Positions 1 to 28,976 of a stretch of 28,976 nucleotides of DNA are shown one piece after another (the stretch's first letter is position 1; every line of letters begins with the position of its first letter). The stretch covers positions 1 to 28,976 of the IMG/VR virus record IMGVR_UViG_3300042884_000633; one strand, 5' to 3'. Under the pieces are notes generated by a model. That model was not told where the DNA came from, did no database searches, and was given only the letters and a program-made list of their open reading frames with translations. The stretch is from a virus. The translations under genes were made by a program, and so were the position numbers.

Positions 1-11
1 TGGCCCGACAC
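1..11. repeat. Left copy of 11-bp terminal direct repeat (candidate cos overhang)
   Basis: TGGCCCGACAC at the start of the window is repeated exactly as its last 11 bases. It lies 53 bp upstream of the small terminase start codon, where cos sits in lambda-like phages. A 5-bp inverted repeat (CGTGG, 7-nt centre, CCACG) spans the joined ends, centred on base 7, one base off the middle of the repeat. This would fit 5' cohesive ends that were filled in before sequencing. A plain assembly overlap is the alternative. Confidence 0.6.
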
Positions 12-63: not shown

Positions 64-612
64 ATGGCCTTAACCAACTCAGAACTGGGTTTGGCGCTCG
101 GCGTCACCGCGCAACGCATCTCGGTGCTTCGCCGCGAAGGCATGCCGACCGACAGCATCGACGCGGCTCGGGCGTGGCGGGAAGCCCGGGCGAACGTGCA
201 GCGGGCCGCGGCACCCAAAGCCGCACCGGCGCAGCTCGACGACGGCTCCCTGGCTGACACGATCAGCGAACATCGGACCTTGGTCAGTCGGGCGCGTGGA
301 GTCTGGCAGGCCGCGATGGAAGGGGGCGACCCGAACCAGGGGAAGTACCAGTCGAGTTATAACGCCTCGCTCAAGACGCTGGTCGCCCTCGAGGAAGAGC
401 AGGAGCGTCGGCTTATCCTGACGAAGGATTACATCTCGGCCAAGGAAGCCACCGAGGCCATGCGCGAGATGACGGCGGGCATCGTCAACCGACTCGATAA
501 ACTCGCCCTCGATGTCGCAGAAGGATGTAACCCCGAGAACCCTGCGAAGGCGGTGAAAGTGCTCGAGGCTTGGGTGCGCCGCGTGAAGGCCGACCTGTCC
601 ACCGATGAATAA
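64..612 (+). CDS. Terminase small subunit (Nu1-like)
   Basis: DNA-recognition subunit of the packaging motor, expected to bind near cos and load the large subunit. The protein has 182 aa, the usual size for the family. Residues about 5-38 form a helix-turn-helix of the Nu1/excisionase winged-helix type (SELGLALGV, then SQRIS-like recognition helix and the REGMPTDS wing), followed by a long helical region rich in Glu and Arg suited to oligomerisation. It is the first gene after the candidate cos and overlaps the large-subunit gene by 8 bp, the normal coupling for terminase pairs. No Shine-Dalgarno is seen; AGAGGAAA lies too far upstream of the ATG. Family assignment rests on domain pattern and position. 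Confidence 0.82.
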   Translation: MALTNSELGLALGVTAQRISVLRREGMPTDSIDAARAWREARANVQRAAAPKAAPAQLDDGSLADTISEHRTLVSRARGVWQAAMEGGDPNQGKYQSSYNASLKTLVALEEEQERRLILTKDYISAKEATEAMREMTAGIVNRLDKLALDVAEGCNPENPAKAVKVLEAWVRRVKADLSTDE

Positions 613-2484: not shown

Positions 2485-2505
2485 TTCCATTCTCGGCAAG
2501 TTTAA
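2485..2505 (+). promoter_or_regulatory. 21-bp start-proximal motif, copy 1 (before the gpW-like gene)
   Basis: Pattern TTCCAWT, four variable bases, GCAA, four variable bases, AA. This copy reads TTCCATT, TCGGCAAG, TTTAA in blocks and ends immediately before the ATG at 2506. Four further copies precede other virion genes. Nine of the 21 positions are the same in all five. Its job (promoter, translation signal or other) is not known. Confidence 0.6.
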
Positions 2506-2760
2506 ATGGCTCAAGGACTATTCATCGGCCTCACTGAATGCGAACTCCTTGCGATCAAGGAGAAGGCTGTCGCCCTAATTACTGAGGGGAAGACCCTCAT
2601 GAGTTACAGTGACAGCGGTTCGAGCGCCAGCCGCCAGATGGTTCTACCCGCCAAAGAAATGTTGAGCGAGGCTCTGTTCGCCCTGTCGAGGCTGGACCCT
2701 GCCACCTACGGCGCTCGTCGCACCATCGTCTCGACCGACTGGCAGAACCGTCAGGACTAA
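2506..2760 (+). CDS. gpW-like head-tail joining protein
   Basis: Small 84-aa protein lying between the large terminase and portal genes, exactly where lambda W sits. It shows an N-terminal helix (about residues 9-27), a short Ser-rich hairpin region (about 32-48) and a second helix (about 49-62), the alpha-beta-alpha layout of gpW. The lambda protein closes the filled head and provides the site for connector attachment. The C-terminal tail is longer and polar. The ATG directly follows motif copy 1. Identity comes from position and predicted fold rather than a diagnostic residue. Confidence 0.6.
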   Translation: MAQGLFIGLTECELLAIKEKAVALITEGKTLMSYSDSGSSASRQMVLPAKEMLSEALFALSRLDPATYGARRTIVSTDWQNRQD

Positions 2761-2766
2761 CTTTCC

Positions 2767-4293
2767 ATGGCCATCCGCAAGAAGATTAAGACCGTCAGCC
2801 TGCGTCCCAAGCCGGTGACGCCTGCCCCGACCGCCCCGCAGCCGCAGGCTTCCTACGGCGATTGGCAGAGCATCGGCGTGACGCGTGCCCGCCGTGCGGC
2901 CTACGGCGCTGAACCGCGTGACCTTCGCCGTGACCTGACCCCTTACGACCGCCTGACGATGGTCCGCAAGTGCCGCTGGGCCGAGCGTAACTCCGGCCTG
3001 TTCAAGCAAATCCTCGCGGACATCTGCCTCTACACCGTGGGCGACGGAATCAAGCCCCAGAGCCACGCGTCGACCCCTGAGATGCAGGAACGCTACGAGG
3101 CTTACTTCGCCGAGAAGGCCAAGCGCATCGACATCACGAACCGCTTCTCGTTCTACCAGGCTCAGTCCATCCTTCTCCGCGGCATGATCCGCGACGGTGA
3201 TTCCTTCGCCGCTAAGGTGCGTAACGGCGCCGGGGAAGCGAAACTCCAGCTGATGGAAGCCCACCGCGTCGGCGACCCTCTCGAAGGCAAGGTGCCCGAG
3301 GGTATGCACGACGGCATCCAGTTCGGTCCTTATGGCGAATACATCGCCGTGAACATCTACCGATCCGACGGCTCGTCCCGCCAGATCCTCGCTCAGTCGA
3401 TGATGATGGTGGTCGACCAGGAGTACGCATCCGGCGCCCGTGGCGTGCCCCTGCTCCAGCACTCCATCAACTCCATCCAGGACGAGATGGAAATCCTCGC
3501 CCTCGAGAAGCAGGCCGTGAAGGACAACGGCGACGTGACCCGCATCATCAAGAAGGCGGGCGGCATCATCGACGGCGACATGGCCAACGAACTAGGGGCG
3601 ACCGGCACAGGCTCCTACGCCAACCTCGCCAACACGATGGGCGGCAAACTCATCGCCCTTGAGCCCGGGGAGGACATGACGTCCTTCCAGAGCAACCGCC
3701 CCAACGCCACCTTCACCGGCTTCCTCGCGGCGCTCGAACGCGACATCTCCCAAGGCGTCCTGCCTTACGAGTTTGTCGGTGACTCCTCCAAGCTCGGCGG
3801 CGCCACCGTTCGCCTCATTACCGCCAAGGCTGGCCGCGTCTTCTCGAAGTATCAGACCATCATGATTGAGAACTTCTGCGTTCCGACGTGGGGTTACATC
3901 ATCGGCCAAGGCATCGCCGCCGGCGAACTGCCTGACGACCCGGACTGGAACCGCGTCTCCTGGACGACCCCGAAGTCCGTCACCGTCGACGCTGGCCGAG
4001 AAGCCGCGAACGACCGGGCCGACGTCGAGATGGGCCTGCTGTCCATGTCTGAGCTCTACGCCCAGCGCGGCCTAGACTTCCGCACCGAAATGGCCAAGCG
4101 GGCTTCCGACATGGTCCACATCAAGGACTTGGCCGAACAATACGGCATCCCGTTTGAACTGCTGTTCCGTCCGTCCAACACCCCGGTCGGCACGATCAGC
4201 GGCGATGTCATGGAAGGCCCCGAGTCCCCCGAGATGGAGGACGAACCCGCTGACCAGGAAGAGCCCGAATCCGAAGACCAACCCAACTCCTAA
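2767..4293 (+). CDS. Portal protein, lambda gpB family
   Basis: Dodecameric ring at the packaging vertex through which DNA enters and leaves. The 508-aa length is close to lambda gpB (533). Family hallmarks are visible: the N-terminal block with RDLTPYDR and RKCRWAERNSG, then VGDGIKP, the RDGDSFA segment and the helical region around LLQHSINSIQDEMEI. The C-terminal 40 residues are acidic and Pro-rich. The gene starts six bases after the gpW-like gene and ends four bases before the protease gene, so it belongs to the head operon. The leader ACTAACTTTCC has no Shine-Dalgarno. Confidence 0.93.
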   Translation: MAIRKKIKTVSLRPKPVTPAPTAPQPQASYGDWQSIGVTRARRAAYGAEPRDLRRDLTPYDRLTMVRKCRWAERNSGLFKQILADICLYTVGDGIKPQSHASTPEMQERYEAYFAEKAKRIDITNRFSFYQAQSILLRGMIRDGDSFAAKVRNGAGEAKLQLMEAHRVGDPLEGKVPEGMHDGIQFGPYGEYIAVNIYRSDGSSRQILAQSMMMVVDQEYASGARGVPLLQHSINSIQDEMEILALEKQAVKDNGDVTRIIKKAGGIIDGDMANELGATGTGSYANLANTMGGKLIALEPGEDMTSFQSNRPNATFTGFLAALERDISQGVLPYEFVGDSSKLGGATVRLITAKAGRVFSKYQTIMIENFCVPTWGYIIGQGIAAGELPDDPDWNRVSWTTPKSVTVDAGREAANDRADVEMGLLSMSELYAQRGLDFRTEMAKRASDMVHIKDLAEQYGIPFELLFRPSNTPVGTISGDVMEGPESPEMEDEPADQEEPESEDQPNS

Positions 4294-4297
4294 CTTT

Positions 4298-5083
4298 ATG
4301 CGTTTCCTCACCAACGGACTGTCGGGCCGCGAGCCCCTTCTCATCGACCCGACCAAGGCGAAAGACCACGCTGTCCTCGCCGAGAAGTTCGGCTTCACGG
4401 ATATGCTCGCGCAGCTCTTCGGCGTGGCTCCCAAGCCCTACGTCGTGGACGGCATCGGCATCATCCCGGTCGTCGGCGTGATCGGCAAGGGCCTGTCTCC
4501 TCTCGAAAAGATGATGGGCGCCGTGGACGTGAACGAAATCTCCGAGGCTCTGGACGCGTTCGCCGCCAGCCCCGAGGTCGAGAAGGTCGCCCTGCAAATC
4601 TCCTCCCCTGGTGGCACGGTCACCGGCGTCGAGGAACTCGCCAACAAGGTCCGCTCCTTCGGCAAGCCTACCCTCGCCTACACCGACTCAGAAATGGCCT
4701 CCGCCGCCTATTGGATTGGCTCCGCTGCCGACCGCGTCGTCGCCAGCCCCTCCAGCACCGTCGGCTCCATCGGAGTCTACATGGCCATCCCTGACTACTC
4801 CGAAGCCGCCAAGATGGCTGGTATCAAGATGGTCGTAATCAAGTCCGGCAAGTTCAAGGGCGCTGGCATCGAAGGCACGTCCCTCGACGAAGGCCAACTC
4901 GGCAACCTTCAGGCTGGCGTCGACACGATCCACGCCGAGTTCAAGGAAGCCGTGAACATGAAGCGCAAGATGGTGAAGGCCGAGGCCATGGAAGGCCAGG
5001 TCTTCTCCGGCAAGCAGGCCGCCGCCCAGGGCTTGGTCACGGGCTTGGCCGACTCTTTCAACGACGCCCTGCGTTCGTTCTAA
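4298..5083 (+). CDS. Prohead protease, S49 (SppA/ClpP-fold) family, gpC-like
   Basis: Capsid-maturation protease expected to digest scaffold and portal N-termini inside the prohead. The 261-aa protein carries the S49 core: SSPGG (about 102-106), the nucleophile Ser135 in MASAAYW, TVGSIGV (about 154-160), and a Lys-rich KSGKFKG (about 182-188) that should hold the catalytic Lys. The ATG at 4298 is chosen because it follows the portal stop by four bases and the frame upstream is the shadow of the portal gene. Lambda C carries its scaffold nested in its own C-terminus; here the scaffold is a separate downstream gene and the protease is correspondingly short. Confidence 0.88.
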   Translation: MRFLTNGLSGREPLLIDPTKAKDHAVLAEKFGFTDMLAQLFGVAPKPYVVDGIGIIPVVGVIGKGLSPLEKMMGAVDVNEISEALDAFAASPEVEKVALQISSPGGTVTGVEELANKVRSFGKPTLAYTDSEMASAAYWIGSAADRVVASPSSTVGSIGVYMAIPDYSEAAKMAGIKMVVIKSGKFKGAGIEGTSLDEGQLGNLQAGVDTIHAEFKEAVNMKRKMVKAEAMEGQVFSGKQAAAQGLVTGLADSFNDALRSF

Positions 5084-5104
5084 TTCCATTAACCGCAAAT
5101 CTAA
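5084..5104 (+). promoter_or_regulatory. 21-bp start-proximal motif, copy 2 (before the scaffold gene)
   Basis: Blocks TTCCATT, AACCGCAA, ATCTAA fill the whole intergenic space except one base, beginning right after the protease stop codon and ending two bases before the ATG at 5106. Sixteen of 21 positions match copy 1. Confidence 0.55.
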
Positions 5105-5105
5105 G

Positions 5106-5546
5106 ATGACCATCGAAGAGCAACTCCTCGCCGCCACCGCCGCCGTTTCTGGCCTCACCGCCGAACGCGACGACCTCCGCACCATTGTCGAGAAGATGAC
5201 GGTCGGCGTCTCTGCCGAACTCGAAAGCCTCAAGGTCGAAGCCGCGTCCAAGGACGCCAAGCTCGCCGAGCTGACCGCCGCCCTCGAAGTGGCCGTCAAG
5301 GAGTCCGAGTCCTTCAAGGCCCTCGTCGCCGAGCACGAAGCCAGCAAGGTCAGCGCCTCCAAGGAAGCCGCCAAGATCGTGGCCTCCGTCGGCGTCTCCC
5401 CGGTCGAACTCAGCCCCGCGGATGGCAAGCCCACCGCCGAAGCCGTTGACCACCTCGCGACCTTCATGTCCCTGCCCGTCGGCAGCAAAGAGCGCAACGA
5501 ATACTTCGCCGCCCACCGCAACGCCATCATCAAGGCTTGCATCTAA
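5106..5546 (+). CDS. Capsid scaffold protein (Nu3-like)
   Basis: A 146-aa, highly charged, largely helical protein directly between the protease and the major capsid gene, the scaffold position. Residues about 15-85 form heptad-rich coiled coil with alternating Glu/Lys and Ala/Leu. The C-terminal part (about 105-146) is less charged and could bind capsid protein, as in lambda Nu3. It would guide capsid subunits into the prohead and then be removed by the S49 protease. No specific family motif is expected in scaffolds, so the call depends on coiled coil plus location. Preceded by motif copy 2. Confidence 0.72.
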   Translation: MTIEEQLLAATAAVSGLTAERDDLRTIVEKMTVGVSAELESLKVEAASKDAKLAELTAALEVAVKESESFKALVAEHEASKVSASKEAAKIVASVGVSPVELSPADGKPTAEAVDHLATFMSLPVGSKERNEYFAAHRNAIIKACI

Positions 5547-5580
5547 TTTCCCCTTAACCCTCACCCAATCATAACACATC

Positions 5581-6453
5581 ATGGCTAACTCCATCGTCGC
5601 CGCTCCCAGCATCCTCGCTGAAAGCGTCATCGCTTCCCTCAAGGGCAAGCTCCCGGCCCTCCGCGCCTTCTCGTCCGTCTTCACCGCTGCCGAATCCGGC
5701 GCCGGCAAGACGGTCCAGGTTCCGCTGATCGGCACCTCCACCGCCACCGAGTTCTCGACCGGCGGATATCTCACCCAGGACGACGCAACGATCACGGCCG
5801 CCAACGTAACCTTAAAACATTTTAAGGTTTCGAGCCGCTTCTCGCCCCTCGACGTCAAGATGTATGGCGCCCAGTTCCTCTCGAACGCCTTCGTCCCGAC
5901 CGCCGCCAACGCCCTCGCTGAAAAGTGCCTGGCTGAAATCGGCGCGCTCATCACGAACGCCAACTACGCTTCGTCCGTCGACACTGGCGCCGCGCTGACC
6001 TACGCTGAAGTCGTGACCGCCAAGGGCGTGCTCGACGCCGCCAAGGCCGCCGAGCCCCGCGCGTTCATCCTGAACAGCACCTACGCCAACGGCCTCCTGG
6101 GCGACGCTACCATCATCGGTAACTCCGTCCTCGGTGCTGGCATCCTGACCTCCGGCCAGATCGGTACCCTCGCCGGTGCCGCTGTCTACCAGTGGAACAG
6201 CCTCCCTGCGAACGCCGAAAACCTCGCTGGCTTCGCCTGCGGCGCTGACGCCATCGCCGTCGCCTCGGCCCTCCCGATGTCCGAAATCCCGGGCTTCGAA
6301 GTCGCCAACGCTGTCGACGCCGACACCGGCCTCGGCGTCCAGGTCCTCATGGGCCAGGAGCAGAGCGGTTACTACAACGTCACCGCCACGCTGCTCTTCG
6401 GTGCCGCTGTCGGTCGCGCGACCTCCCTCCACCGCCTCAAGACCGCCGCCTAA
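5581..6453 (+). CDS. Major capsid protein (HK97-fold expected)
   Basis: A 290-aa protein after the scaffold and before a strong terminator, the standard place of the main head subunit. Features include an N-terminal helical arm (residues 1-30), a beta-rich segment with GKTVQVPLIG (about 43-52), a long central helix, and a C-terminal region rich in Gly, Ala and Val. Codons are strongly biased to G/C at the third position, as expected for a highly expressed gene, except the AT-rich palindrome at 5810-5827. It is shorter than lambda gpE (341 aa), and no gpD-like decoration gene is visible between scaffold and capsid, so the head may lack a cementing protein. The 34-base leader is C/A-rich with a TTTCCCC stretch and no Shine-Dalgarno. 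Confidence 0.85.
   Translation: MANSIVAAPSILAESVIASLKGKLPALRAFSSVFTAAESGAGKTVQVPLIGTSTATEFSTGGYLTQDDATITAANVTLKHFKVSSRFSPLDVKMYGAQFLSNAFVPTAANALAEKCLAEIGALITNANYASSVDTGAALTYAEVVTAKGVLDAAKAAEPRAFILNSTYANGLLGDATIIGNSVLGAGILTSGQIGTLAGAAVYQWNSLPANAENLAGFACGADAIAVASALPMSEIPGFEVANAVDADTGLGVQVLMGQEQSGYYNVTATLLFGAAVGRATSLHRLKTAA
5810..5827. repeat. Perfect AT-rich inverted repeat inside the capsid gene
   Basis: CCTTAAAA and TTTTAAGG flank a two-base centre, giving an 8-bp perfect dyad. It encodes Thr-Leu-Lys-His-Phe-Lys-Val using TTA and AAA, unlike the surrounding C/G-ending codons. Could be an operator-like site or a chance result of the codons; no function is shown. Confidence 0.5.
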
Positions 6454-6475
6454 TAGCGGTCCAAGGCTCGAACGA

Positions 6476-6501
6476 GGCTCCCAGCAATGGGGGCCTTTTT
6501 T
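6476..6501 (+). terminator. Rho-independent terminator after the major capsid gene
   Basis: GGCTCCC (6476-6482) pairs with GGGGGCC (6489-6495), with one G-T pair and a six-base loop AGCAAT, followed by six Ts (6496-6501). This is the clearest terminator in the window. It would limit read-through from the head operon into the tail genes and give the capsid mRNA a stable 3' end. Confidence 0.88.
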
Positions 6502-6509
6502 GTGCCCCC

Positions 6510-6530
6510 TACCAATCCGGGCAAGTATAG
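6510..6530 (+). promoter_or_regulatory. 21-bp start-proximal motif, copy 3 (after the terminator)
   Basis: Blocks TACCAAT, CCGGGCAAG, TATAG lie nine bases after the terminator T-tract and end two bases before the ATG at 6532. A restart of transcription is expected here after the terminator, so this copy favours a promoter role. Confidence 0.6.
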
Positions 6531-6531
6531 G

Positions 6532-6912
6532 ATGAGCCTCTACGGAACCGAGTTTCTCAATGACGCCAAAGAGATGGTGGCGGACTTCGGCGTGGCCGGG
6601 TCGGCCAACTCTGGGGCCATCACCTTCTCATGCCTGATCTCCGACCCCGCCGTCTCGACCGTCCTCGAAGCAGGGGGGTATATGGAGCGGACCCAGTATA
6701 CGGTCAGGCTCCCCGCTGTAACGGCCTCCTGGAGCCAGCCAGACGGGTCTACGGGGGCATCGGCGGCCCTACTGTCCTCGGGTGCCCCCATCGCCTCCCT
6801 CGCCCAGGGGAAGAAGATCGTGGCCGGCGGGAAGACCGTCCGCATCACGACCCAGACCTACAAGCCCGGGTCGGCATGGATCACGCTCGTCGTCATCGAC
6901 GATAACCAGTAA
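6532..6912 (+). CDS. Head-tail connector, gpFII-like
   Basis: A 126-aa protein in the position of lambda FII, first gene after the capsid. It has an N-terminal helix (about 5-18), then beta-strands, including a segment ERTQYTVRLP and a C-terminal run with GGKTVRITT and WITLVVIDD, similar in layout to the small FII beta barrel. It would seal the head and dock the tail. The ATG at 6532 is preferred over an in-frame ATG at 6487 because the latter lies inside the terminator hairpin and the former follows motif copy 3. Assignment is by size, layout and order. Confidence 0.5.
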   Translation: MSLYGTEFLNDAKEMVADFGVAGSANSGAITFSCLISDPAVSTVLEAGGYMERTQYTVRLPAVTASWSQPDGSTGASAALLSSGAPIASLAQGKKIVAGGKTVRITTQTYKPGSAWITLVVIDDNQ

Positions 6913-6917
6913 CCCCT

Positions 6918-7907
6918 GTGGTCAAGGTCGTCATCGAGCCCAAGTCCTACGCGGACTTCATGGCGGCCATCCAGAAGTACGCCTCTAAGTCCAAGCAGAC
7001 CCTACGAGACGCGGCGCTGGAACAGGCCGCCTTGGCTTGCAGTGACGCGGCGACCTTTACCCCTCCCCTGGCTAAGGGCGGGGGTGACGGCCTTTCCAAA
7101 GCCGCAAAGAACGCAGGCGAACAGGCCATCGACCGAGACGTCGGCAAGGTAGTCGTCCCAATGTCTGGCGGCACGAAGGACACCCAGCGTGCCCGGGTGG
7201 TCAAGCGCCTCGGCTCCCTAGCCCTTACGGATAACGCCTCGTTGTTCTGGAAAGTTGCGGCCAAGAACTCGCCTATCCTTAACAGCAACGGCTTCCTGGC
7301 CCGGATGCTCTCTGACCGTTACAACGGCTTTGGAACTGTCTGGGGCTTCAAGAAGCTGCGGAACTACTTTAACCGCATCGGGACTAAGGTCGCCAATCAA
7401 TCTCTTAATCAAGCCAGCCTTCAGTCCATCGGAGAAATCCACTCGGCTTTTAAGCCTGTCTATCAGCGCGAGGGAGGAAGGCTATGGAAGTCAGGCCGCA
7501 ATGTCAGCGGCATCTCTCCAATGAACAGGTTTGTGGCCGAAGAGAAAGGCGACTTAGACCGCTACGTCATGCAGCGCCAGAAGACGGTCGGGGCTATCAA
7601 GTCAGGCTGGGCGATGGCTCTGCGTACCCTGCCCAAGCCTGTCATCAACGGCGTGCCAAAAGACTATGGCGTCAAACTGCTGAACGCAGGCTGGATCACG
7701 CGCCACAAAAGCGTGCAGGGAAAGAACACCATCTCGTCTTCAGCTAAGGACGTCGACATCATCATCTTTAACGCCGACGGCAACACCAACGGCATAGCCG
7801 ATCAGGCTAACACCCTTGGGCTTGTCTACGGCAACCGTGTCAAACAGATGCCCGCCCGCGTCCGACGATTGCTTCAGCAGGACGTCGACTCATTTAACAA
7901 GAAATAA
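6918..7907 (+). CDS. Putative tail-completion / minor tail protein (gpZ position)
   Basis: A 329-aa basic protein placed between the connector and the tail terminator, where lambda Z and HK97 gp10-type proteins are found. The N-terminal region (about 1-120) has the helical and beta pattern of a neck or tail-completion protein. The middle (about 120-230) is rich in basic and aromatic residues, and the C-terminus (about 265-329) has strands such as DVDIIIFNADG and a final helix. It is much longer than lambda gpZ (192 aa), so there may be an added domain. The start is GTG at 6918, five bases after the previous stop. Function is inferred from synteny only. Confidence 0.4.
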   Translation: MVKVVIEPKSYADFMAAIQKYASKSKQTLRDAALEQAALACSDAATFTPPLAKGGGDGLSKAAKNAGEQAIDRDVGKVVVPMSGGTKDTQRARVVKRLGSLALTDNASLFWKVAAKNSPILNSNGFLARMLSDRYNGFGTVWGFKKLRNYFNRIGTKVANQSLNQASLQSIGEIHSAFKPVYQREGGRLWKSGRNVSGISPMNRFVAEEKGDLDRYVMQRQKTVGAIKSGWAMALRTLPKPVINGVPKDYGVKLLNAGWITRHKSVQGKNTISSSAKDVDIIIFNADGNTNGIADQANTLGLVYGNRVKQMPARVRRLLQQDVDSFNKK

Positions 7908-7909
7908 CC

Positions 7910-8341
7910 ATGGGAACCAAATCTATCCGCCACATCGTAGAGGCCACCTTGGCCACCTACCTATCCACCCAGACCGGGCTGACCACTGTGTCCTTCCTGA
8001 CCGGGGACAGCGCCGCGACCCAGACCCTGCCCAAGGCCGTGGTCCTCTGCGAGTCCGCCCGTAGCCCTGCCGACCTCCCCGAGGGCGAAGGCAACTTCAG
8101 CTGCTCGGTCCGTATCACCCTCTTCTCGAACGCCGACGACACGACCCTCGCCGATCACCGCGCCCGCTGCGCCGCCCTGTCCGGCAATATGCGCGACCTG
8201 ACCTCCATCAAGGCGGCCTTCGTCGCCTCGACCGACGCGGCCTGTTACGACGTCACGATGCAGTCCGAAGACGAAGGCATCGACGAGCGCTCCTGGGCGA
8301 CTTCCTTCTCGTTCGACGTGCTGGTGGTCCTGCCCGCCTAA
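7910..8341 (+). CDS. Tail terminator protein, gpU-like
   Basis: A 143-aa protein starting two bases after the previous stop. It opens with a helix (RHIVEATLATYLST), followed by TLPKAVVLCES, a strand pair around FSCSVRITLFS, a helix with the DHRARCAALSG stretch, and a last strand FSFDVLVVLP. This helix plus sheet plan is that of tail terminator proteins (gpU, neck type), which cap the tail tube and join it to the head. Position before the tail tube gene agrees. No catalytic motifs are expected. Confidence 0.55.
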   Translation: MGTKSIRHIVEATLATYLSTQTGLTTVSFLTGDSAATQTLPKAVVLCESARSPADLPEGEGNFSCSVRITLFSNADDTTLADHRARCAALSGNMRDLTSIKAAFVASTDAACYDVTMQSEDEGIDERSWATSFSFDVLVVLPA

Positions 8342-8346
8342 GCCAA

Positions 8347-8367
8347 TTCCAAAGCCCGCAATTACAA
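8347..8367 (+). promoter_or_regulatory. 21-bp start-proximal motif, copy 4 (before the tail tube gene)
   Basis: Blocks TTCCAAA, GCCCGCAA, TTACAA end directly before the ATG at 8368. This is the most divergent copy: it keeps the TTCCA and GCAA blocks and the final AA. The distance to the start codon equals that of copy 1. Confidence 0.5.
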
Positions 8368-8748
8368 ATGGCCGCCATCTCAAACGGAACCACCTGCATC
8401 TACGGAGTCGCGGGTACTGTCGCTAACCTCTTCGTCCAGAGCTACAGCCTCTCGTCCTCGTTCAACTCCGAGGCCATGGTCGTCGATGAGACGGGCATCA
8501 CGAAGACGCACCGCCTCGATGACCGCAAGAGCGAGATCACCATCGAAGGCATCGCCAAGACCTCTTCCATCCCTGTCCTCGGCGCCACCATCACCTTCAC
8601 GGTCAACACCCTCTCTGCCTATCCGTCTGGCTCGGCTTCAGTCTCGTTTGCGGGAGTCGTGACCAAGGTCGATGACAAGGGCACCAACAAGGGCTTTACT
8701 TCTGTCACCGTTACGGCGGTCGACTTCGAAGGTATCACCTACTCGTAA
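8368..8748 (+). CDS. Probable major tail tube protein
   Basis: A 126-aa, almost purely beta-strand protein in the place of lambda V, between tail terminator and tail chaperone. Recognisable strands include LFVQSYSLSSS, KSEITIEGIAK and ATITFTVNTL, ending with TSVTVTAVDFEG. The pattern of a loop (VDETGITKTHRLD) followed by a strong strand resembles tail tube and Hcp-like folds. The codon bias is strong, fitting an abundant protein. It is short for a siphovirus tube subunit (lambda gpV is 246 aa with its extra C-terminal domain). The assignment is by fold pattern and order. Confidence 0.55.
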   Translation: MAAISNGTTCIYGVAGTVANLFVQSYSLSSSFNSEAMVVDETGITKTHRLDDRKSEITIEGIAKTSSIPVLGATITFTVNTLSAYPSGSASVSFAGVVTKVDDKGTNKGFTSVTVTAVDFEGITYS

Positions 8749-8754
8749 TTGACA

Positions 8755-8768
8755 CCCCCGAAAGGGGG
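8755..8768 (+). other. GNRA-tetraloop hairpin after the tail tube gene
   Basis: CCCCC (8755-8759) and GGGGG (8764-8768) close a GAAA loop, six bases after the TAA stop. There is no T-tract, so it is probably an mRNA stabiliser or attenuator between an abundant tube protein and the less needed chaperone. Confidence 0.6.
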
Positions 8769-8783
8769 GCAGTCTAGAGGGTA

Positions 8784-9386
8784 GTGGATAAACGCTTCCT
8801 CAACGCCTACGTCGACCCGGCTCCTTTTAGGATTCTGGGTCGCACGCTTTACCCCTGGTGCCTCAAGTATCGCGTGCGTCTGGAGGCTTTCCAATCACCG
8901 CTGGTGGACAGCCACCGCGCGATCACCCCGGCCGACCTTATCCTCGCCGTGCAACTGTGCGCCGAGGAGCCCATCGGTAAGTTCGGAATCAGGGACACTT
9001 GGCGGGTCTTGCAGCTCGAGCGATACCCCGAGGAGTTCCAGCGCCAACTCAACTTGTTTTCGTCCTACATCCTTGTCGGTCATTGGCCTAAGTTCTGGGA
9101 ACAGACCAAGACCAAGGGCGGCAACGGCAAGAACATCCCGTGGCCTTTGGCTATCGTGGCCGGACTGATTGCCAACGGGATACCCGAGCAGCGTGCCTGG
9201 GAGATGCCCGAGTGTCAGGCCATCTGGCTTAACACGGCCTTCGGTGTCCGCAACGGTGCCGATGTCTCCATCATGTCCACGGAGGAGGAAGCCTTCATGG
9301 CCGATGAGGAAGCCCGGGAAGCCTACTTCTCCGCTTCCAATCCTGCAAAGGAAAGCCCCCCTACCACCGATGGCCCAATCACTTGA
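8784..9386 (+). CDS. Tail assembly chaperone-like protein
   Basis: A 200-aa mostly helical protein between the tail tube and tape measure genes, the position of lambda G/T chaperones, which keep the tape measure in solution during tail assembly. The C-terminal half has helices such as AWEMPECQAIWLN followed by an acidic tail with EEEAFMADEEAREAY. The start is GTG at 8784, with a weak AGAGGG just upstream. It ends 17 bp inside the tape measure gene. A six-C run (9356-9361) near the end is the only obvious place for a programmed frameshift; a +1 shift there would enter the tape measure frame. Function is from position. Confidence 0.5.
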   Translation: MDKRFLNAYVDPAPFRILGRTLYPWCLKYRVRLEAFQSPLVDSHRAITPADLILAVQLCAEEPIGKFGIRDTWRVLQLERYPEEFQRQLNLFSSYILVGHWPKFWEQTKTKGGNGKNIPWPLAIVAGLIANGIPEQRAWEMPECQAIWLNTAFGVRNGADVSIMSTEEEAFMADEEAREAYFSASNPAKESPPTTDGPIT

Positions 9387-10224
9387 AGTCCAGATCAAGG
9401 CTACCTCCGATGTCCCGCAGGCGGTCGACCGCGCCAAGGAAGCCATCACGAGCCTGGAGAAGCGTGCTTCGTCCGTCAAGGTAGGTACCGCGGGCGGCGC
9501 CGTCGAGCAGACCACGACCAAGGCCACCGGCAAGGTCGAGACGCAGTTCGACAAGATCGGTAAGTCTTTCGGCAATACCATCTCATCCGTATTCCTGTCC
9601 TTCCTCGGCCCCCTTGCCATCATCTCCGGCATCATCGCCTTTGTCAGCAACGCCATCGCCGAAGCCAATCAACTTGCGACTGACGGCGTAAACCGAATCG
9701 CCGAAGGAAAAACCAAACTTGCTACTGATGAAGAAACAAAAATGGCGAACTTCTTTAAGGCTAAGGACGCCAGAGAAAAGGAAGAACGCGAAGTAAAGGC
9801 TGGCCGCGAACAACTCACACGGCGCTTCCTTGAGGAAACGGAAGAAGGTAGGAGATTGGCTCCCCATGCAAGACGGACAATTAGGCCTGGCTCCGGAGAT
9901 ACTATTGAGAAAGACCCTGCCATGCAAAGGCGTGCCTTAGAAGCATTCTTGGCAAGCCCTGAAGGCAAGAAGTACGCCTCAATCTTTGAAGACGAAAAAG
10001 CCACCAAGGAAAACTCCTTCAAGGCCCCCGAGGGCTTCTCCAACGTCGTCGGCGTCGGCGCCAACCCGGTGCTTCAAGCCCTCGACGATTCCCTTGCGGA
10101 AGCACGGAAGCAGACCGAACTGCTCGACAAAATCGCCAGCAAGGGAGAGCAGAGCACCGCCCCCGACTTCACCAAGACAGAACTGAAGGCGCAATACAGC
10201 GCCTCGATTATGTCCACTCTCTGA
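9370..10224 (+). CDS. Short tape measure protein
   Basis: A 284-aa protein with an N-terminal amphipathic helical region (1-65), one strong hydrophobic segment at about 72-96 (with SVFLSFLGPLAII), and a charged coiled-coil region with Lys/Glu repeats from about 97 to 180. This helix-plus-hydrophobic plan in the slot after the chaperone fits a tape measure. At about 0.15 nm per residue it would give a tail near 43 nm, very short for a siphovirus. The ATG at 9370 is chosen because the upstream frame only shadows the chaperone. The central part (9690-9970) uses more A/T-ending codons than its ends, hinting at exchange. A membrane-active ejection protein is an alternative. Confidence 0.55.
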   Translation: MAQSLEVQIKATSDVPQAVDRAKEAITSLEKRASSVKVGTAGGAVEQTTTKATGKVETQFDKIGKSFGNTISSVFLSFLGPLAIISGIIAFVSNAIAEANQLATDGVNRIAEGKTKLATDEETKMANFFKAKDAREKEEREVKAGREQLTRRFLEETEEGRRLAPHARRTIRPGSGDTIEKDPAMQRRALEAFLASPEGKKYASIFEDEKATKENSFKAPEGFSNVVGVGANPVLQALDDSLAEARKQTELLDKIASKGEQSTAPDFTKTELKAQYSASIMSTL

Positions 10225-10233
10225 TCTACTAAC

Positions 10234-11109
10234 ATGGCACGCATCGACTACGGCAACGCAATGGTGAACGCCATCCTGCAACCAGGATGGAAAGTCCAAG
10301 GGGACGGCTTCGGTCTGATGACCGGGACTTGCGTCTTCAAGTCCGACCAGAACGGCAACTTCAACGTGGCCGTCATCGGCTCCTCCCACCCGGACTCCAG
10401 CTACACCTACATGAAGGCCCACAAGGTCGGGGTCTCCTACGACGCGCTGAACATCGCCACCATCACCGTGGATTATGTGGGCATCGACACGGCCTACACG
10501 GGAAGCAATTACACGCTTCCGCAGATGATCGCGAGCAACTCGCTCGGCTCCGAGAACATCACGACCCACATCAATTTCCTCGACCAAGCGGCTGGCTGGG
10601 AAGGCCCCATCGCCGGACGCGGAGACGCCGCCCCTGGAGACCCTCCTGACTATCCTGAAAGCGACCTAGGCCCGACGGTCAAAGGCCCGACAGGAAACCC
10701 GGTCAAGTCCCGCATCGGGGACAACGGCGCCTGCTTCGAGAAAGCCAGCGGTGGCCGTTTCATCGGCTTCGTCGACCCCACCGTCCGCGAGCTCTACGGC
10801 AAGACCAACTACCTCACGCCGACGACGACCTTCTCTGGATTCTTCTACACGACCGACACGGCCGCACCGGCTGAGTTCGTCGACTTGCTCGGAGCGTCCT
10901 CGAACAACGGGACTTGGGGAGGGGTGTTCTCCGTCTCCATCATCCCGTCATATGTCGGTGCCGGTGGCGATGGGGAGTTCGGCCCCAAGCTCTTGCTGTC
11001 TAACGCAAACATCGAGCGCTACGCTGGGTCTGTCCTGAAAATCTCCTACGAGGTACGCTACAGCAACGAAGGCTGGAGCCGTAAGGTCTACTACGCCGCC
11101 ACCTCCTAA
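10234..11109 (+). CDS. Unrecognised tail-tip protein 1
   Basis: I do not recognise this 291-aa protein. It is beta-rich with many Gly, Thr, Ser and Tyr residues, has no signal peptide or membrane segment, and contains a Pro/Gly-rich linker at about 125-150 (GDAAPGDPPDYPESD). The N-terminal part (1-120) and C-terminal part (155-291) look like two domains. It lies directly after the tape measure, the place where a distal tail or hub protein would be expected, so it may form the tail tip. The leader TCTACTAAC has no Shine-Dalgarno. Confidence 0.6.
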   Translation: MARIDYGNAMVNAILQPGWKVQGDGFGLMTGTCVFKSDQNGNFNVAVIGSSHPDSSYTYMKAHKVGVSYDALNIATITVDYVGIDTAYTGSNYTLPQMIASNSLGSENITTHINFLDQAAGWEGPIAGRGDAAPGDPPDYPESDLGPTVKGPTGNPVKSRIGDNGACFEKASGGRFIGFVDPTVRELYGKTNYLTPTTTFSGFFYTTDTAAPAEFVDLLGASSNNGTWGGVFSVSIIPSYVGAGGDGEFGPKLLLSNANIERYAGSVLKISYEVRYSNEGWSRKVYYAATS

Positions 11110-11112
11110 GCC

Positions 11113-11700
11113 ATGGCTATCCGCAACGGAGACGGCTACGTCTTTTCGACGACTAACAATCAGTCGATACTCGGCATCCAGAGGGAGTTCGCCGACATGT
11201 ATGACGGGGCGGCGCAGGACACTTGCTCGCCCTTCAAGGTCAAGAACGTACAAGAGGTCACGGTGGGCGAGTCTACGATCGTCACCTACGAGATCTGCCC
11301 TGGCACATTTAACAACCTGATGCCACAGGTCTACAACGAGACGGAAGAGGAGTTCGAGTATCTCGACGACCTGACGGAAGGCTATCAGCTAATCCTCGAC
11401 TTCGCGTCGACCTCGTCGTGCATCGTCTACCTCCGCGTAGGCCCTGACGCGTCTACCAATCAGTTCCCCCCTTCTGCACCTATCAGCCCTTACGACCCGG
11501 ACGACCCCTACCCGACCGTGTTCAATACGGGTGGAACCCTTCCCACCGACACCGACACTTACGGATACCTTGCTTTGGCTAAGGTGAACTCGCTCGGCAG
11601 TGGAGTCTATTCAGTAGACCAATACGTCACCGGCTCGCTTTGGGCTGACCGCATCAAGCTCGGAACCGCGACGGCGACCTATTACTACGCCCGCATCTGA
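11113..11700 (+). CDS. Unrecognised tail-tip protein 2
   Basis: A 195-aa acidic, beta-rich protein of unknown function, starting three bases after the previous stop with the leader TAAGCC. It has an acidic patch (ETEEEFEYLDD, about 77-87) and a Pro/Asp-rich loop (SPYDPDDPYP, about 124-133). The C-terminal 50 residues look like a small beta domain ending in ATATYYYARI. It shares its stop TGA with the start of the next gene (TGATG), so the two are likely translated together. Probably part of the tail tip or fibre attachment, from location only. Confidence 0.6.
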   Translation: MAIRNGDGYVFSTTNNQSILGIQREFADMYDGAAQDTCSPFKVKNVQEVTVGESTIVTYEICPGTFNNLMPQVYNETEEEFEYLDDLTEGYQLILDFASTSSCIVYLRVGPDASTNQFPPSAPISPYDPDDPYPTVFNTGGTLPTDTDTYGYLALAKVNSLGSGVYSVDQYVTGSLWADRIKLGTATATYYYARI

Positions 11701-12137
11701 TGGGAAGCATCGTAGGCAGCTCTTCATCGGTCTCGACTTGGGGCAAGTTCCGTTGCGCGTGGTGCCTTGAGAGCAACTACGATTATTTGGTATATGATTT
11801 TACCATCGAATATTATTCAGGTCAAAAATCGGCTGCGACTGGAAGCGGATTAATCAGGTGGCCGCGTGGGGTTCAAAGCATAAGCGACCAACAGCCTACC
11901 ATCTTCAGCGCCATGAGGTCTGGTAATTATACTTTCTTCATGGTTCCAACCGATCCAACATTCCCTGGTACTGCGGCAACAACTGAGTTTAAGAATGAGA
12001 TGATTGGGGAACTGGTCGCCGTGACAGGCACTTCTTATGCCCTTACTTCGACCTTCTTCGACACAGGATCCCAGAACACGGGAAGCACAACGCCGCTCGA
12101 CCCCATCACCTCCATCGGTAAACTGACGGCCTTCTGA
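11700..12137 (+). CDS. Unrecognised tail-tip protein 3, AT-richer insert
   Basis: A 145-aa protein of unknown function, coupled to the previous gene through TGATG. Residues about 27-110 (11778-12030) use clearly more A/T-ending codons than neighbouring genes, with runs such as TATATGATTTTACC, while both ends return to the GC-rich style. It has many aromatic residues (YDYLVYDF, NYTFFMV) and no membrane segment. The codon contrast suggests that the centre was swapped in, as happens in receptor-facing proteins. An adsorption or fibre-linking role is possible but unproven. Confidence 0.55.
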   Translation: MGSIVGSSSSVSTWGKFRCAWCLESNYDYLVYDFTIEYYSGQKSAATGSGLIRWPRGVQSISDQQPTIFSAMRSGNYTFFMVPTDPTFPGTAATTEFKNEMIGELVAVTGTSYALTSTFFDTGSQNTGSTTPLDPITSIGKLTAF

Positions 12138-12146
12138 CCCCCCCCC

Positions 12147-12167
12147 TTCCAATCGGGGCAAGGTTAA
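12147..12167 (+). promoter_or_regulatory. 21-bp start-proximal motif, copy 5 (before the fibre module)
   Basis: Blocks TTCCAAT, CGGGGCAAG, GTTAA follow a nine-C run (12138-12146) and end six bases before the ATG at 12174. It is the copy closest to copy 3 and opens the fibre module. Confidence 0.6.
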
Positions 12168-12173
12168 GACCCG

Positions 12174-12494
12174 ATGAGCTGCACAAATCAAGTTAGCCTA
12201 TCGCAGGGTAACACCTTCGCCTGCACCTTTACCTGGACGCCCGGGGCGACGGGTCCGGCCAACCTCCTGACGACGACCATCAGCTCGTCCCTCGAAGACC
12301 GCCAGAACAACGTCTACGCGATGACGGTGACCAAGGCCGGAGACGGCCTGTCCTTCACGGTGACCTACCCGGGCTCGACCGCTGACTGGGCGATCGGCCT
12401 CGGCAAGTGGGACATCAAGTTCGTCTTCCCGGGCTCGACCATCTCGCGCACCGAACTCTTCCGCGTCAACGTCATCGACTCCGTCACCGTCTAA
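12174..12494 (+). CDS. Ig-like / BppU N-terminal-like structural protein
   Basis: A 106-aa all-beta protein. The pattern of an early aromatic strand (FACTFTWTP), a TTTISSS strand, then a central strand (LSFTVTYPG), a W-containing turn (GLGKWDIKFVF) and a final RTELFRVNVIDSVTV is that of the small immunoglobulin-like domains that attach fibres to tail tips, as in the N-terminal part of baseplate BppU proteins. It lies immediately before the large fibre gene, separated by three bases, so a fibre-anchoring role is likely. It carries motif copy 5 upstream. Confidence 0.5.
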   Translation: MSCTNQVSLSQGNTFACTFTWTPGATGPANLLTTTISSSLEDRQNNVYAMTVTKAGDGLSFTVTYPGSTADWAIGLGKWDIKFVFPGSTISRTELFRVNVIDSVTV

Positions 12495-27899: not shown

Positions 27900-28420
27900 C
27901 GCTGTCGTGCGTGACACGCGCTAGGCTCAACGACCTGACGGCTCCGGCTAAGGAGGCCAAGTCGTTTGACGCTTGGTTCTTTGCGCAGCCGAAGAAGGTC
28001 CAGGAGAAGATGCGAGAGAACGGCGTGCTGCCTTACGCTGAGATGGCGCAACCTCGGCACGTCTTCAACATCGACGCCAATCATCCTGACTGGGCGTTCA
28101 ACCCGACGGACATCGGCAGACGCGAGGAAGTCGATGCGTTCATGTCACGCGATCATGTGGGCGTGATGCTCAAGGGTTTCATGGATGCGCTGGCCTGCAC
28201 GGATAACTTCGCCTTCCGTCGTCACGTCGAGCTCATACGCTGGGCGCTGAGTCTGCCCGGTTGTCTGTCGTCTCGCCTCATCGGGAAGATGTATGGACGC
28301 TCCCACTTCTGGATGCGTGCCAGGGCTAAGGAGATCCAACGCACGGTGAACTCAGACGCGTGCGGATTATTTCCTCACGTGAATGCCAGACGCGGCAAGA
28401 ATAAGCCCATTACCAAGTAA
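27896..28420 (+). CDS. Hypothetical protein with possible C-terminal helix-turn-helix
   Basis: A 174-aa protein of unknown function. The last third (RHVELIRWALSLPG; SSRLIGKMYGRSHFWMRARAKEIQ) looks like a helix-turn-helix, with LIGKMYGRS as the turn and a basic recognition helix. The middle part has conserved-looking aromatic residues (HPDWAFNPTDIGRR). The start may be the TTG at 27896, overlapping the previous stop, or the GTG at 27911. Lying just before the packaging genes, it could be a late regulator such as an antiterminator, but no family is recognised. Confidence 0.45.
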   Translation: MTLSCVTRARLNDLTAPAKEAKSFDAWFFAQPKKVQEKMRENGVLPYAEMAQPRHVFNIDANHPDWAFNPTDIGRREEVDAFMSRDHVGVMLKGFMDALACTDNFAFRRHVELIRWALSLPGCLSSRLIGKMYGRSHFWMRARAKEIQRTVNSDACGLFPHVNARRGKNKPITK

Positions 28421-28422
28421 CC

Positions 28423-28976
28423 ATGCAAAGAATCCCAACCGAGAAAAGGTCCAAAGGTCTGCAGTATTACTACGATAACATCGATCGTTTGCGTGAAGTT
28501 AACCGACTAAGGGCAAAGGCATACTATGATAAGAATCGTGGCAAGAAGTTGGCTGATAACTCCAAGTGGAGGAAGAAGAATAAAGTTAAGAATCAAGCAA
28601 TGAAGAAGTCCTGGAACAAGCGCCGCTTCTTTTACTGCAAGGCCATGATGCTCAAGGCCAACAACCGAGGAGGTGTTAGCTTCGAGACGACACAGCAACT
28701 TGCCCGAGGCTTGATGTTCCAATGGGTAAGGCAACGCGGCAGGTGCGCCCTGACCGGGCTCAAGCTAGACCGAACGGCTAACGCCGACCATATCCTGCCA
28801 GTGTGCAAGGGGGGAACCGACAACAGTAACAACTTCCAATGGCTGACGCCGGAGGCCAATCACTTCAAAGGATCGCTTACCCTGCAGGAATTGGCCCATA
28901 TGTGCCGTCTGGTGCTGGAAAACGTTGAAAAAAGGAATCTTTTACACCCCCCCCTACGTCACGCGTGGCCCGACAC
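28423..28976 (+). CDS. HNH endonuclease, running off the right end
   Basis: Begins MQRIPTEKRSKGLQYYYDNI and is open to the end of the window. The N-terminal 75 residues are very basic and helical, and the HNH core has CALTG (109-113), ADHILPV with His123, GGTDNSNNFQWL with Asn137, and a final NHFKG with His147. Joined to base 1 across the terminal repeat it gives 199 aa and stops at 55-57. HNH proteins beside terminase, as in HK97, help cut at cos during packaging, which fits here. Codons are AT-richer than the average, so it may be a recent arrival. Leader TAACC. Confidence 0.85.
   Translation, partial: MQRIPTEKRSKGLQYYYDNIDRLREVNRLRAKAYYDKNRGKKLADNSKWRKKNKVKNQAMKKSWNKRRFFYCKAMMLKANNRGGVSFETTQQLARGLMFQWVRQRGRCALTGLKLDRTANADHILPVCKGGTDNSNNFQWLTPEANHFKGSLTLQELAHMCRLVLENVEKRNLLHPPLRHAWPD
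28966..28976. repeat. Right copy of 11-bp terminal direct repeat
   Basis: Exact copy of bases 1-11. The base before it (G28965) and the preceding CG complete the left arm CGTGG of the dyad that continues on the other end. Eight Cs (28947-28954) lie shortly before it. Confidence 0.6.

Follow-up and report, generated by a model that had tools for sequence, protein, structure and literature searches.

A two-box motif abutting virion-gene start codons co-varies with a candidate phage-encoded late regulator

The late promoters of phages phiEco32 and 7-11 are read by the phage sigma factors phi32_gp36 and SaPh711_gp47; their elements are tAATGTAtA or GTAAtg-16-aCTA, with mapped starts 6–9 bp away (PMC8948821). 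The stoperators of cluster A phages (L5, Bxb1 and TipsytheTRex) are 13 bp sites that occur genome-wide in up to ∼30 copies and serve in lysogeny (PMC6550527, PMC9283540). Cluster K phages carry start-associated sequences (SAS) and extended SAS (ESAS), which are 13 bp long, mostly point one way, typically lie 3–7 bp 5′ of start codons and are tied to non-structural genes; a portion of the SAS is able to base-pair with 16S rRNA (PMC3203893). The virus record IMGVR_UViG_3300042884_000633, analysed here over its whole 28,976 bases (the window), has terminase, portal, protease and capsid genes and carries a 21 bp motif ahead of several of its virion genes. From the sequence comparisons below we think it rather likely that the copies are DNA sites of a phage-encoded late regulator, probably near-leaderless promoter elements, with a predicted helix–turn–helix (HTH) protein as the candidate factor. 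By analogy, the phiEco32 and 7-11 late promoters appear to be the system that behaves most alike: short elements are repeated before late genes at conserved positions, there is a phage-encoded factor (here a candidate), and the consensus differs at similar positions and is paired with diverged factors. In contrast to those promoters, the two boxes of the window motif are about one helical turn apart and abut the start codon, and the putative factor is a 169-residue protein of predicted HTH type. None of the known systems compared fits all of the defining features tested.

The five motif copies reported by the initial annotation lie exactly where it placed them (Table 1), and the nine positions that it described as shared (T1, C3, C4, A5, G12, C13, A14, A15 and A20) are invariant in all five. 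Its statement that every copy begins with TTCCA holds for four of them; the copy at 6510 reads TACCA. The copies end 0, 1, 1, 0 and 6 bases 5′ of the ATG codons at 2506, 5106, 6532, 8368 and 12174 (genes are named here by their start positions, for example g2506), a strong terminator (stem 6476–6495, T-run 6496–6501) does precede one copy and the nine-C run near another begins at 12138. The position-weight search proposed in the annotation was carried out on the window: leave-one-out position-weight matrices (PWMs) ranked the held-out copies 1, 2, 1, 3 and 1 against a background of ∼57,900 positions on both strands. The pattern TTCCAN6GCAAN4AA has four forward matches in the window and its reversed control none. 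The motif is real and belongs to a wider system, to which the present analysis adds a sixth copy, lineage-specific site versions and the candidate factor. Copy 1 forms the final seven codons of a 38-residue open reading frame (ORF; 2389–2505), the TAA of which closes the motif, so that this copy is more than intergenic sequence. The same ORF overlaps the terL stop codon (ATGA); by eye, its frame seems to be kept in some relatives and to stop 5′ of the motif in others. A PWM match at 28384, within the factor gene, occurs in two (G004 and G005) of 12 larger records and not in the other ten, and was discarded.

Conservation at the same genes in related phages was the initial annotation's own test, and the result is positive in relatives anchored on the capsid. 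These were retrieved with the capsid protein and not with the motif (157 loci including the window, among the matches listed), and the 60 nt upstream of each gene were searched with the strict pattern T[ACT]CCA-N6-GCA[AT], identical upstreams being counted once; in random windows the chance rate is 0.9% for this pattern and 4.9% for a looser one. The strict motif is found in 246 of 315 distinct upstreams of the five motif genes, compared with 0 of 515 for eleven other families (terS 17, terL 33, portal 39, protease 87, capsid 86, g6918 61, g8784 75, g10234 65, g11113 34, g11700 7 and g12498 11). By gene, the counts are 32/37 for g2506, 56/78 for g5106 (69/78 loose), 44/70 for g6532 (62/70 loose), 69/81 for the tube gene and 45/49 for g12174. 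A further gene, g7910, has the motif in 20 of 85 upstreams (24 with the loose pattern). At g9370, where the spacer is 5 nt, the strict pattern matches none of 54 upstreams and a loose pattern allowing this spacer matches 52. Away from these genes the loose pattern matches 13/65 upstreams of g10234, 11/75 of g8784, 2/87 of the protease and 1/39 of the portal.

A PWM gives the same picture: 375 of 458 distinct matches of at least 11 bits stand 5′ of the seven motif genes, in a count that leaves out window copies L001–L004, phage records L201 and L202 and nine loci (L113, L132, L134, L141 and five others) that match the exact pattern, lack the virion genes of the window and were taken as chance. 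At 14 bits or more there are 614 matches over all loci. Reversing the matrix gives 91, and permuting its columns in four ways gives 6, 7, 49 and 145; these control counts mean that low-scoring matches alone prove little. Box 1 lies 19–35 nt from the start codon in nearly all copies (this survey, and that of the misses described next, also includes motif-selected loci). Read individually, the 37 upstreams of six motif genes that the loose pattern misses comprise 21 TTKAC-type sites, four TTGCC-type sites, six of a variant seen in L257 and L279, five TTCCA-type sites that fail the pattern (ATCCA) and one unrelated sequence (L312). Six loci keep an intact motif farther from the tube start, at 52 nt (L009, L041, L066, L073 and L075) or 56 nt (L175), with an insert of 31–35 nt between the two. 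The insert occurs behind three different motif versions and has thus seemingly been moved by recombination.

In sister lineages nearly all copies are exchanged jointly for another version at the same genes. The window-type version is TTCCA-N6-GCAA; others are TTKAC-N6/7-CCAAG (L242, L243, L248, L256, L263 and L272), TTGCC-N6/7-GCA (L235, L502 and L504) and TTGAC-N7-GCAA (L476, L478 and L484), and L487 has TTGCC-N6-GGCAA, which forms a perfect dyad in all four of the copies read there. Throughout, the spacing of the two boxes is nearly fixed and the spacer sequence is free. The sixth copy changes along with the rest of the set, as L275 indicates: TTCCACT is found in four of its six copies, including that 5′ of g9370, with the g2506 site (TTCCAAG) and the g6532 site (TTGCCAAC) differing.

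The site version goes together with the candidate factor. We compared 27 non-virion ORFs of the window with 21 phage records, and the factor is the only one that is much more window-like in G016, which has TTCCA-type sites (67% identity), than in G017, G018 and G019, which have TTKAC-type sites (36, 34 and 32%, respectively); for most other comparable genes, the distance from the window is about equal in G016, G017 and G018. Set against L243 (the G019 record), G016 is nearly identical in the portal (98%), protease (98%), g5106 (96%) and capsid (97%), somewhat less so in g12174 (90%) and g2506 (86%), and more distant in terL (66%) and terS (45%). The site type nevertheless differs between the two 5′ of g2506, g5106 and g12174, and their factors are 34% identical. 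G016 and the window, at 53% identity in terL, 60% in the portal and 64% in the capsid, share both the site type and the closer factor. A second swap separates L470 from L476, which are 96, 94 and 95% identical in terL, capsid and g5106, respectively, and differ in their sites. L470 itself is without a factor; the factor of L443, a locus linked to the L470 type by matches on either flank, is 34% identical to that of L476. In partial Mantel tests (5,000 permutations) on 18 genomes, hand-chosen from 38 distinct factor-plus-site units as one or a few per lineage, motif distance (mismatches in both boxes of the g2506 site) correlates with factor distance given terL (r = 0.55, p = 0.0002) and not with terL distance given the factor (r = 0.08, p = 0.16); the kinship of the genomes and the hand-curated boxes make the p-value a guide only. 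The pairing of site version with factor is well supported by these comparisons, and it suggests a phage-encoded switch for the phage's own late genes.

Two other explanations bear on these swaps. The initial annotation had offered linkers where modules recombine, that is, sites at module borders kept as homology for cassette exchange. Copies do stand at gene borders, g7910 has one in part of the relatives and the genomes are mosaic, but linkers should stay constant while genes change; here the sites change 5′ of genes that stay 86–98% identical, on which the idea fails, and we give it almost no weight. Alternatively, site type and factor may be linked only by travelling with a tail cassette or a host switch, the binder being a host sigma factor or the product of another phage gene. 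The g6532–g10234 block, the factor and the sites do all differ together between G016 and L243, and independent swaps are few. Set against this, the sites are also re-typed 5′ of nearly identical head genes and of g12174, and the factor alone among the 27 ORFs shows the pattern; such linkage seems improbable to us.

The factor gene lies near the record end, after replication-type genes, and the record opens with terS; the window contains a single additional ORF between the two, which begins at 28423 and reads as HNH-like. Many factor-bearing contigs stop within a few hundred bases of the factor. The two ends of the window (1–11 and 28966–28976) have TGGCCCGACAC in common; from this, and from the many relatives' contigs ending just past the factor, the physical ends of the genome probably fall in the stretch from the factor to terS. 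The window factor has no match in PHROGs, Pfam or NCBIfam, and a PDB sequence profile search returned 0 matches. Several of 16 factor members are weakly matched by HTH-type Pfam models, the best being MarR_2 (6 × 10−5, below its cut-off). Structure models had a predicted local distance difference test (pLDDT) score of 50 with a seven-row alignment and 70 with a 21-row alignment; the latter has a helical C-terminal part with pLDDT ∼84–91 over residues 101–140. The predicted HTH part ranks closest to sigma region 4 chains, although not significantly: among the best 50 rows of each search, sigma chains account for 37 with Foldseek and 45 with VIA. The chain at VIA rank 6, from an AlpA-loaded complex, is likewise not significant. 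Foldseek against viral models gave four matches with E ≤ 0.001, all to uncharacterised proteins of uncultured phages. As modelled, the factor is a predicted HTH-type protein of unassigned family.

A capsid search of isolates gave Verrucomicrobia phage P8625 (two records) as the sole match, a distant relative at 29% identity. Scanning genomes with a portal profile turned up three loci; these lie in metagenome-assembled genomes (MAGs) of Verrucomicrobiota, two of them in Opitutales/Opitutae, and the virus probably infects Opitutae. An extended form of the pattern occurs twice in three candidate-host MAGs, once in a phage contig and once elsewhere, and this near-absence makes the motif seemingly phage-owned. 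By eye, P8625 has an element of its own, TTGMCA-N17-TATTGGATAC-N3-ATG, 5′ of gp08, gp13 and gp15, in which a −35-like TTGMCA is followed after 17 bp by TATTGG. As in the window, it is repeated before the portal region, after the post-capsid terminator and before the tube region, a few bases 5′ of ATG; unlike the window motif, it has a TTGACA-like box and a 17 bp spacing. The P8625 ORF comparison found no relative of the window factor. The annotated start of gp13 (9620) is probably too early, the ATG at 9656 fitting better, and the gp15 copy contains a GTATCC/GGATAC inverted repeat.

Near-leaderless late promoters remain the best of the initial annotation's three ideas; ribosome recruitment is disfavoured. 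The terminator 5′ of g6532 is present in 105 of 126 distinct upstreams of relatives, with the end of its T-run a median of 29 nt from the start codon, so that transcription would have to restart within that distance; terminators are found in 5/156 capsid, 1/131 terL and 1/105 g10234 upstreams and in none of the rest. This terminator, the start-codon distances that grow without loss of the motif and the P8625 element at similar positions favour promoter action. That the sites act as DNA rather than RNA is suggested by the nearly fixed box spacing with a free spacer, the dyad in one lineage and the co-variation with an HTH-type protein.

An RNA-level translation element near the start codon, read by the ribosome or by a phage protein, is nonetheless a rival to be considered, and in placement the cluster K SAS are the nearest described case: both are repeated, lie near start codons and occur at the same genes among relatives (PMC3203893). 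The gaps to the start codon are 0–6 nt in five copies; the sixth copy departs from this, as do the six tube loci that have inserts. The copies are in sense orientation, mostly 19–35 nt 5′ of start codons, and neither the likely host nor the phage shows enrichment of Shine–Dalgarno (SD) sequences. Among 45 genes taken from ∼95 kb of the candidate host, an Opitutae MAG (with starts taken as those of the longest ORFs), 5 are preceded by an SD-like 4-mer, compared with 6 of 45 in a control window, and so are 5 of 38 genes of the phage window; leaderless starts would not be odd here. In contrast to SAS, which are not known to have a co-varying protein, the window motif precedes virion genes only, has such a protein and, as the initial annotation had noted, does not resemble an SD: inspection of the consensus columns found no SD core, and thus no complementarity to the 16S rRNA 3′ end. 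The motif remains intact 52–56 nt from the start in six loci and is retained at g2506 and g9370, whose starts adjoin or overlap the preceding ORF, and its co-switching with a DNA-binding-type protein adds to the case against ribosome recruitment. Reading the sites showed no RNA pairing kept across lineages, and the motif is unused in the three candidate-host MAGs. We therefore regard a translation element as improbable.

Silencing of the stoperator kind is the main rival to activation: the HTH protein would sit 5′ of the virion modules and halt RNA polymerase until late in infection. Cluster A stoperators share with the present sites their asymmetry, one main orientation, their location in short intergenic gaps and a lineage consensus that varies together with a cognate phage HTH repressor, which is also of similar size (183 residues in L5; PMC6550527, PMC9283540). 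Stoperators are spread genome-wide, however, with operators at early promoters, whereas a pattern search of 12 larger records did not find such a distribution: there are six sites in the window, and conserved sites stand exclusively before virion genes. The one early match shared between records (G004 and G008) spans a gene's own ATGAGCA start and reads as chance. Furthermore, no integrase was found among the 39 ORFs scanned, and a silencing site right after a conserved terminator would be redundant. On balance silencing appears unlikely, although less so than the other alternatives.

The favoured reading, activation at near-leaderless late promoters, would work as follows. The 169-residue predicted HTH protein, the gene for which lies just before terS across the genome ends, would be made with the early or middle genes and bind sites of ∼16–22 bp through two boxes (TTCCA and GCAA) lying about one helical turn from each other, ahead of each virion module. 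The bound factor would drive host RNA polymerase to initiate there, with the RNA starting at or a few bases 5′ of the start codon, giving leaderless or near-leaderless late mRNAs; the genes under this control would be those of the virion region, starting at 2506. What the observations support is that the sites exist, that they are conserved at the same genes and that they vary together with the factor. From this we infer direct binding by the factor, when it is made, an activating and not a blocking effect, and the place at which the RNA begins; we also take the genes after the motif to be late from their virion roles. A bolder proposal, which we put forward tentatively, as possible and not as probable, is that a compact HTH protein belonging to none of the known sigma families alone defines two-box promoters that abut start codons, with leaderless virion mRNAs and a specificity that switches jointly with the sites.

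Several observations weigh against the favoured reading. The boxes are only 6–7 nt apart and nearly always within 35 nt of the start codon, and the canonical sigma70 layout (TTGACA/TATAAT hexamers 16–18 bp apart, upstream of the start) is absent, in agreement with the initial annotation's remark that the motif is unlike a sigma-70 promoter. In some copies the distance from the first T of box 1 to the start codon is 19 nt, which would require the RNA to start within a few nucleotides of box 2, and the sequence where a −10 element would fall is GC-rich. The fold matches of the factor are weak (Foldseek E ≥ 0.37, VIA Z ≤ 4.3), and Sigma70_r4 matches one of the 16 factor members (E = 0.032). L468 and L275 have TTGCCA at g6532 amid sites of TTCCA type. 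In L482, a mosaic contig, the g2506 and g5106 sites are TTGAC-type and those of g6532 and the tube gene belong to another type; it is perhaps a recent recombinant with mismatched sites. The L443-type factor is tied to its sites solely through flanking sequence, the Mantel genomes are related to one another and were scored at the g2506 site only, and the difference in the g6532–g10234 block between G016 and L243 leaves room for linkage.

Other types of element were considered and rejected. A sigma54 promoter has the wrong box order and spacing. A T7-like promoter is similar in geometry, but no single-subunit RNA polymerase was matched among the 39 ORFs scanned, nearly all of them in only PHROGs or only Pfam and with some ORFs of the window unscanned. 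An RNA hairpin was dismissed since only the L487 type has a perfect dyad.

Three further regions drew attention. Between the tube gene and the GTG of ORF 8784 (8749–8783) there is TTGACA, a CCCCCGAAAGGGGGG hairpin and CAGTCT (TAGNNT in relatives); by eye, TTGAC and the spacing seem constant, in contrast to the stem and its GNRA-like loop, which vary. The region may be a sigma70-like promoter for a leaderless mRNA, its spacer containing the hairpin. At 9335–9386 the frame relation of ORF 8784 and g9370 is constant in 49 of 51 distinct upstreams, in which the motif lies 26, 29, 32 or 35 nt from the ATG (30 nt in the other two), and a +1 frameshift fusion of the two at the conserved TCC AAT CCT GCA AAG GAA is possible. 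The leader of the capsid gene (5547–5580) is conserved, CA-rich and G-poor and lacks the motif.

Table 1. Coordinates of the motif copies, the candidate factor and associated features (window positions, except for the P8625 rows, which refer to record L201).
Feature	Position	Strand	Basis or remark
Terminase small subunit (terS)	64..612	+	phrog_57, 2.5e-6; opposite record end from factor
Motif copy 1, TTCCATTCTCGGCAAGTTTAA	2485..2505	+	Abuts g2506
Small virion-region gene (g2506)	2506..2760	+	After copy 1; gpW-like is the initial annotation's label; no PHROG match
Portal	2767..4293	+	phrog_21, 6.6e-38
Head maturation protease	4298..5083	+	phrog_53, 1.6e-57
Motif copy 2	5084..5104	+	5′ of scaffold-like g5106
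Scaffold-like gene (g5106)	5106..5546	+	Initial annotation's label, position fits; no PHROG match
Major capsid protein	5581..6453	+	phrog_283, 9e-12
Intrinsic terminator	6476..6501	+	Sequence; between capsid gene and copy 3
Motif copy 3, TACCA variant	6510..6530	+	5′ of connector-like g6532
Connector-like gene (g6532)	6532..6912	+	Initial annotation's label; longer ORF 6487-6912 without PHROG match
Motif copy 4	8347..8367	+	5′ of tail-tube-like g8368
Tail-tube-like gene (g8368)	8368..8748	+	Initial annotation's label; no PHROG match
Motif copy 6, TTCCAATCCTGCAAAGGAAA	9335..9354	+	5-nt spacer; within 3′ end of ORF 8784; 5′ of g9370
Gene after copy 6 (g9370)	9370..10224	+	Tape-measure-like by position alone
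Motif copy 5	12147..12167	+	5′ of g12174
Gene after copy 5 (g12174)	12174..12494	+	phrog_1084, unknown function, 3e-4
Candidate recognition factor, 169 residues	27911..28420	+	Co-variation and model; GTG start; predicted HTH at ∼residues 100-145
P8625 element	5410-5448		5′ of gp08
P8625 element	9620-9656		5′ of gp13
P8625 element	10740-10772		5′ of gp15

The literature searches made here found no promoter study for Opitutae; the sites described here offer a handle on gene expression in Opitutae. They also form a resource in which several site versions, each with a candidate factor, stand at the same genes, including genome pairs in which the head genes are near-identical and the sites switched. 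This lets one ask how a transcription factor and all of its sites change jointly, a standing question in regulatory evolution. If the bolder proposal made above is true, these phages would make leaderless virion mRNAs in bacteria that scarcely use Shine–Dalgarno sequences, and the specificity of their late regulator would have switched on several occasions, along with almost all of its sites.

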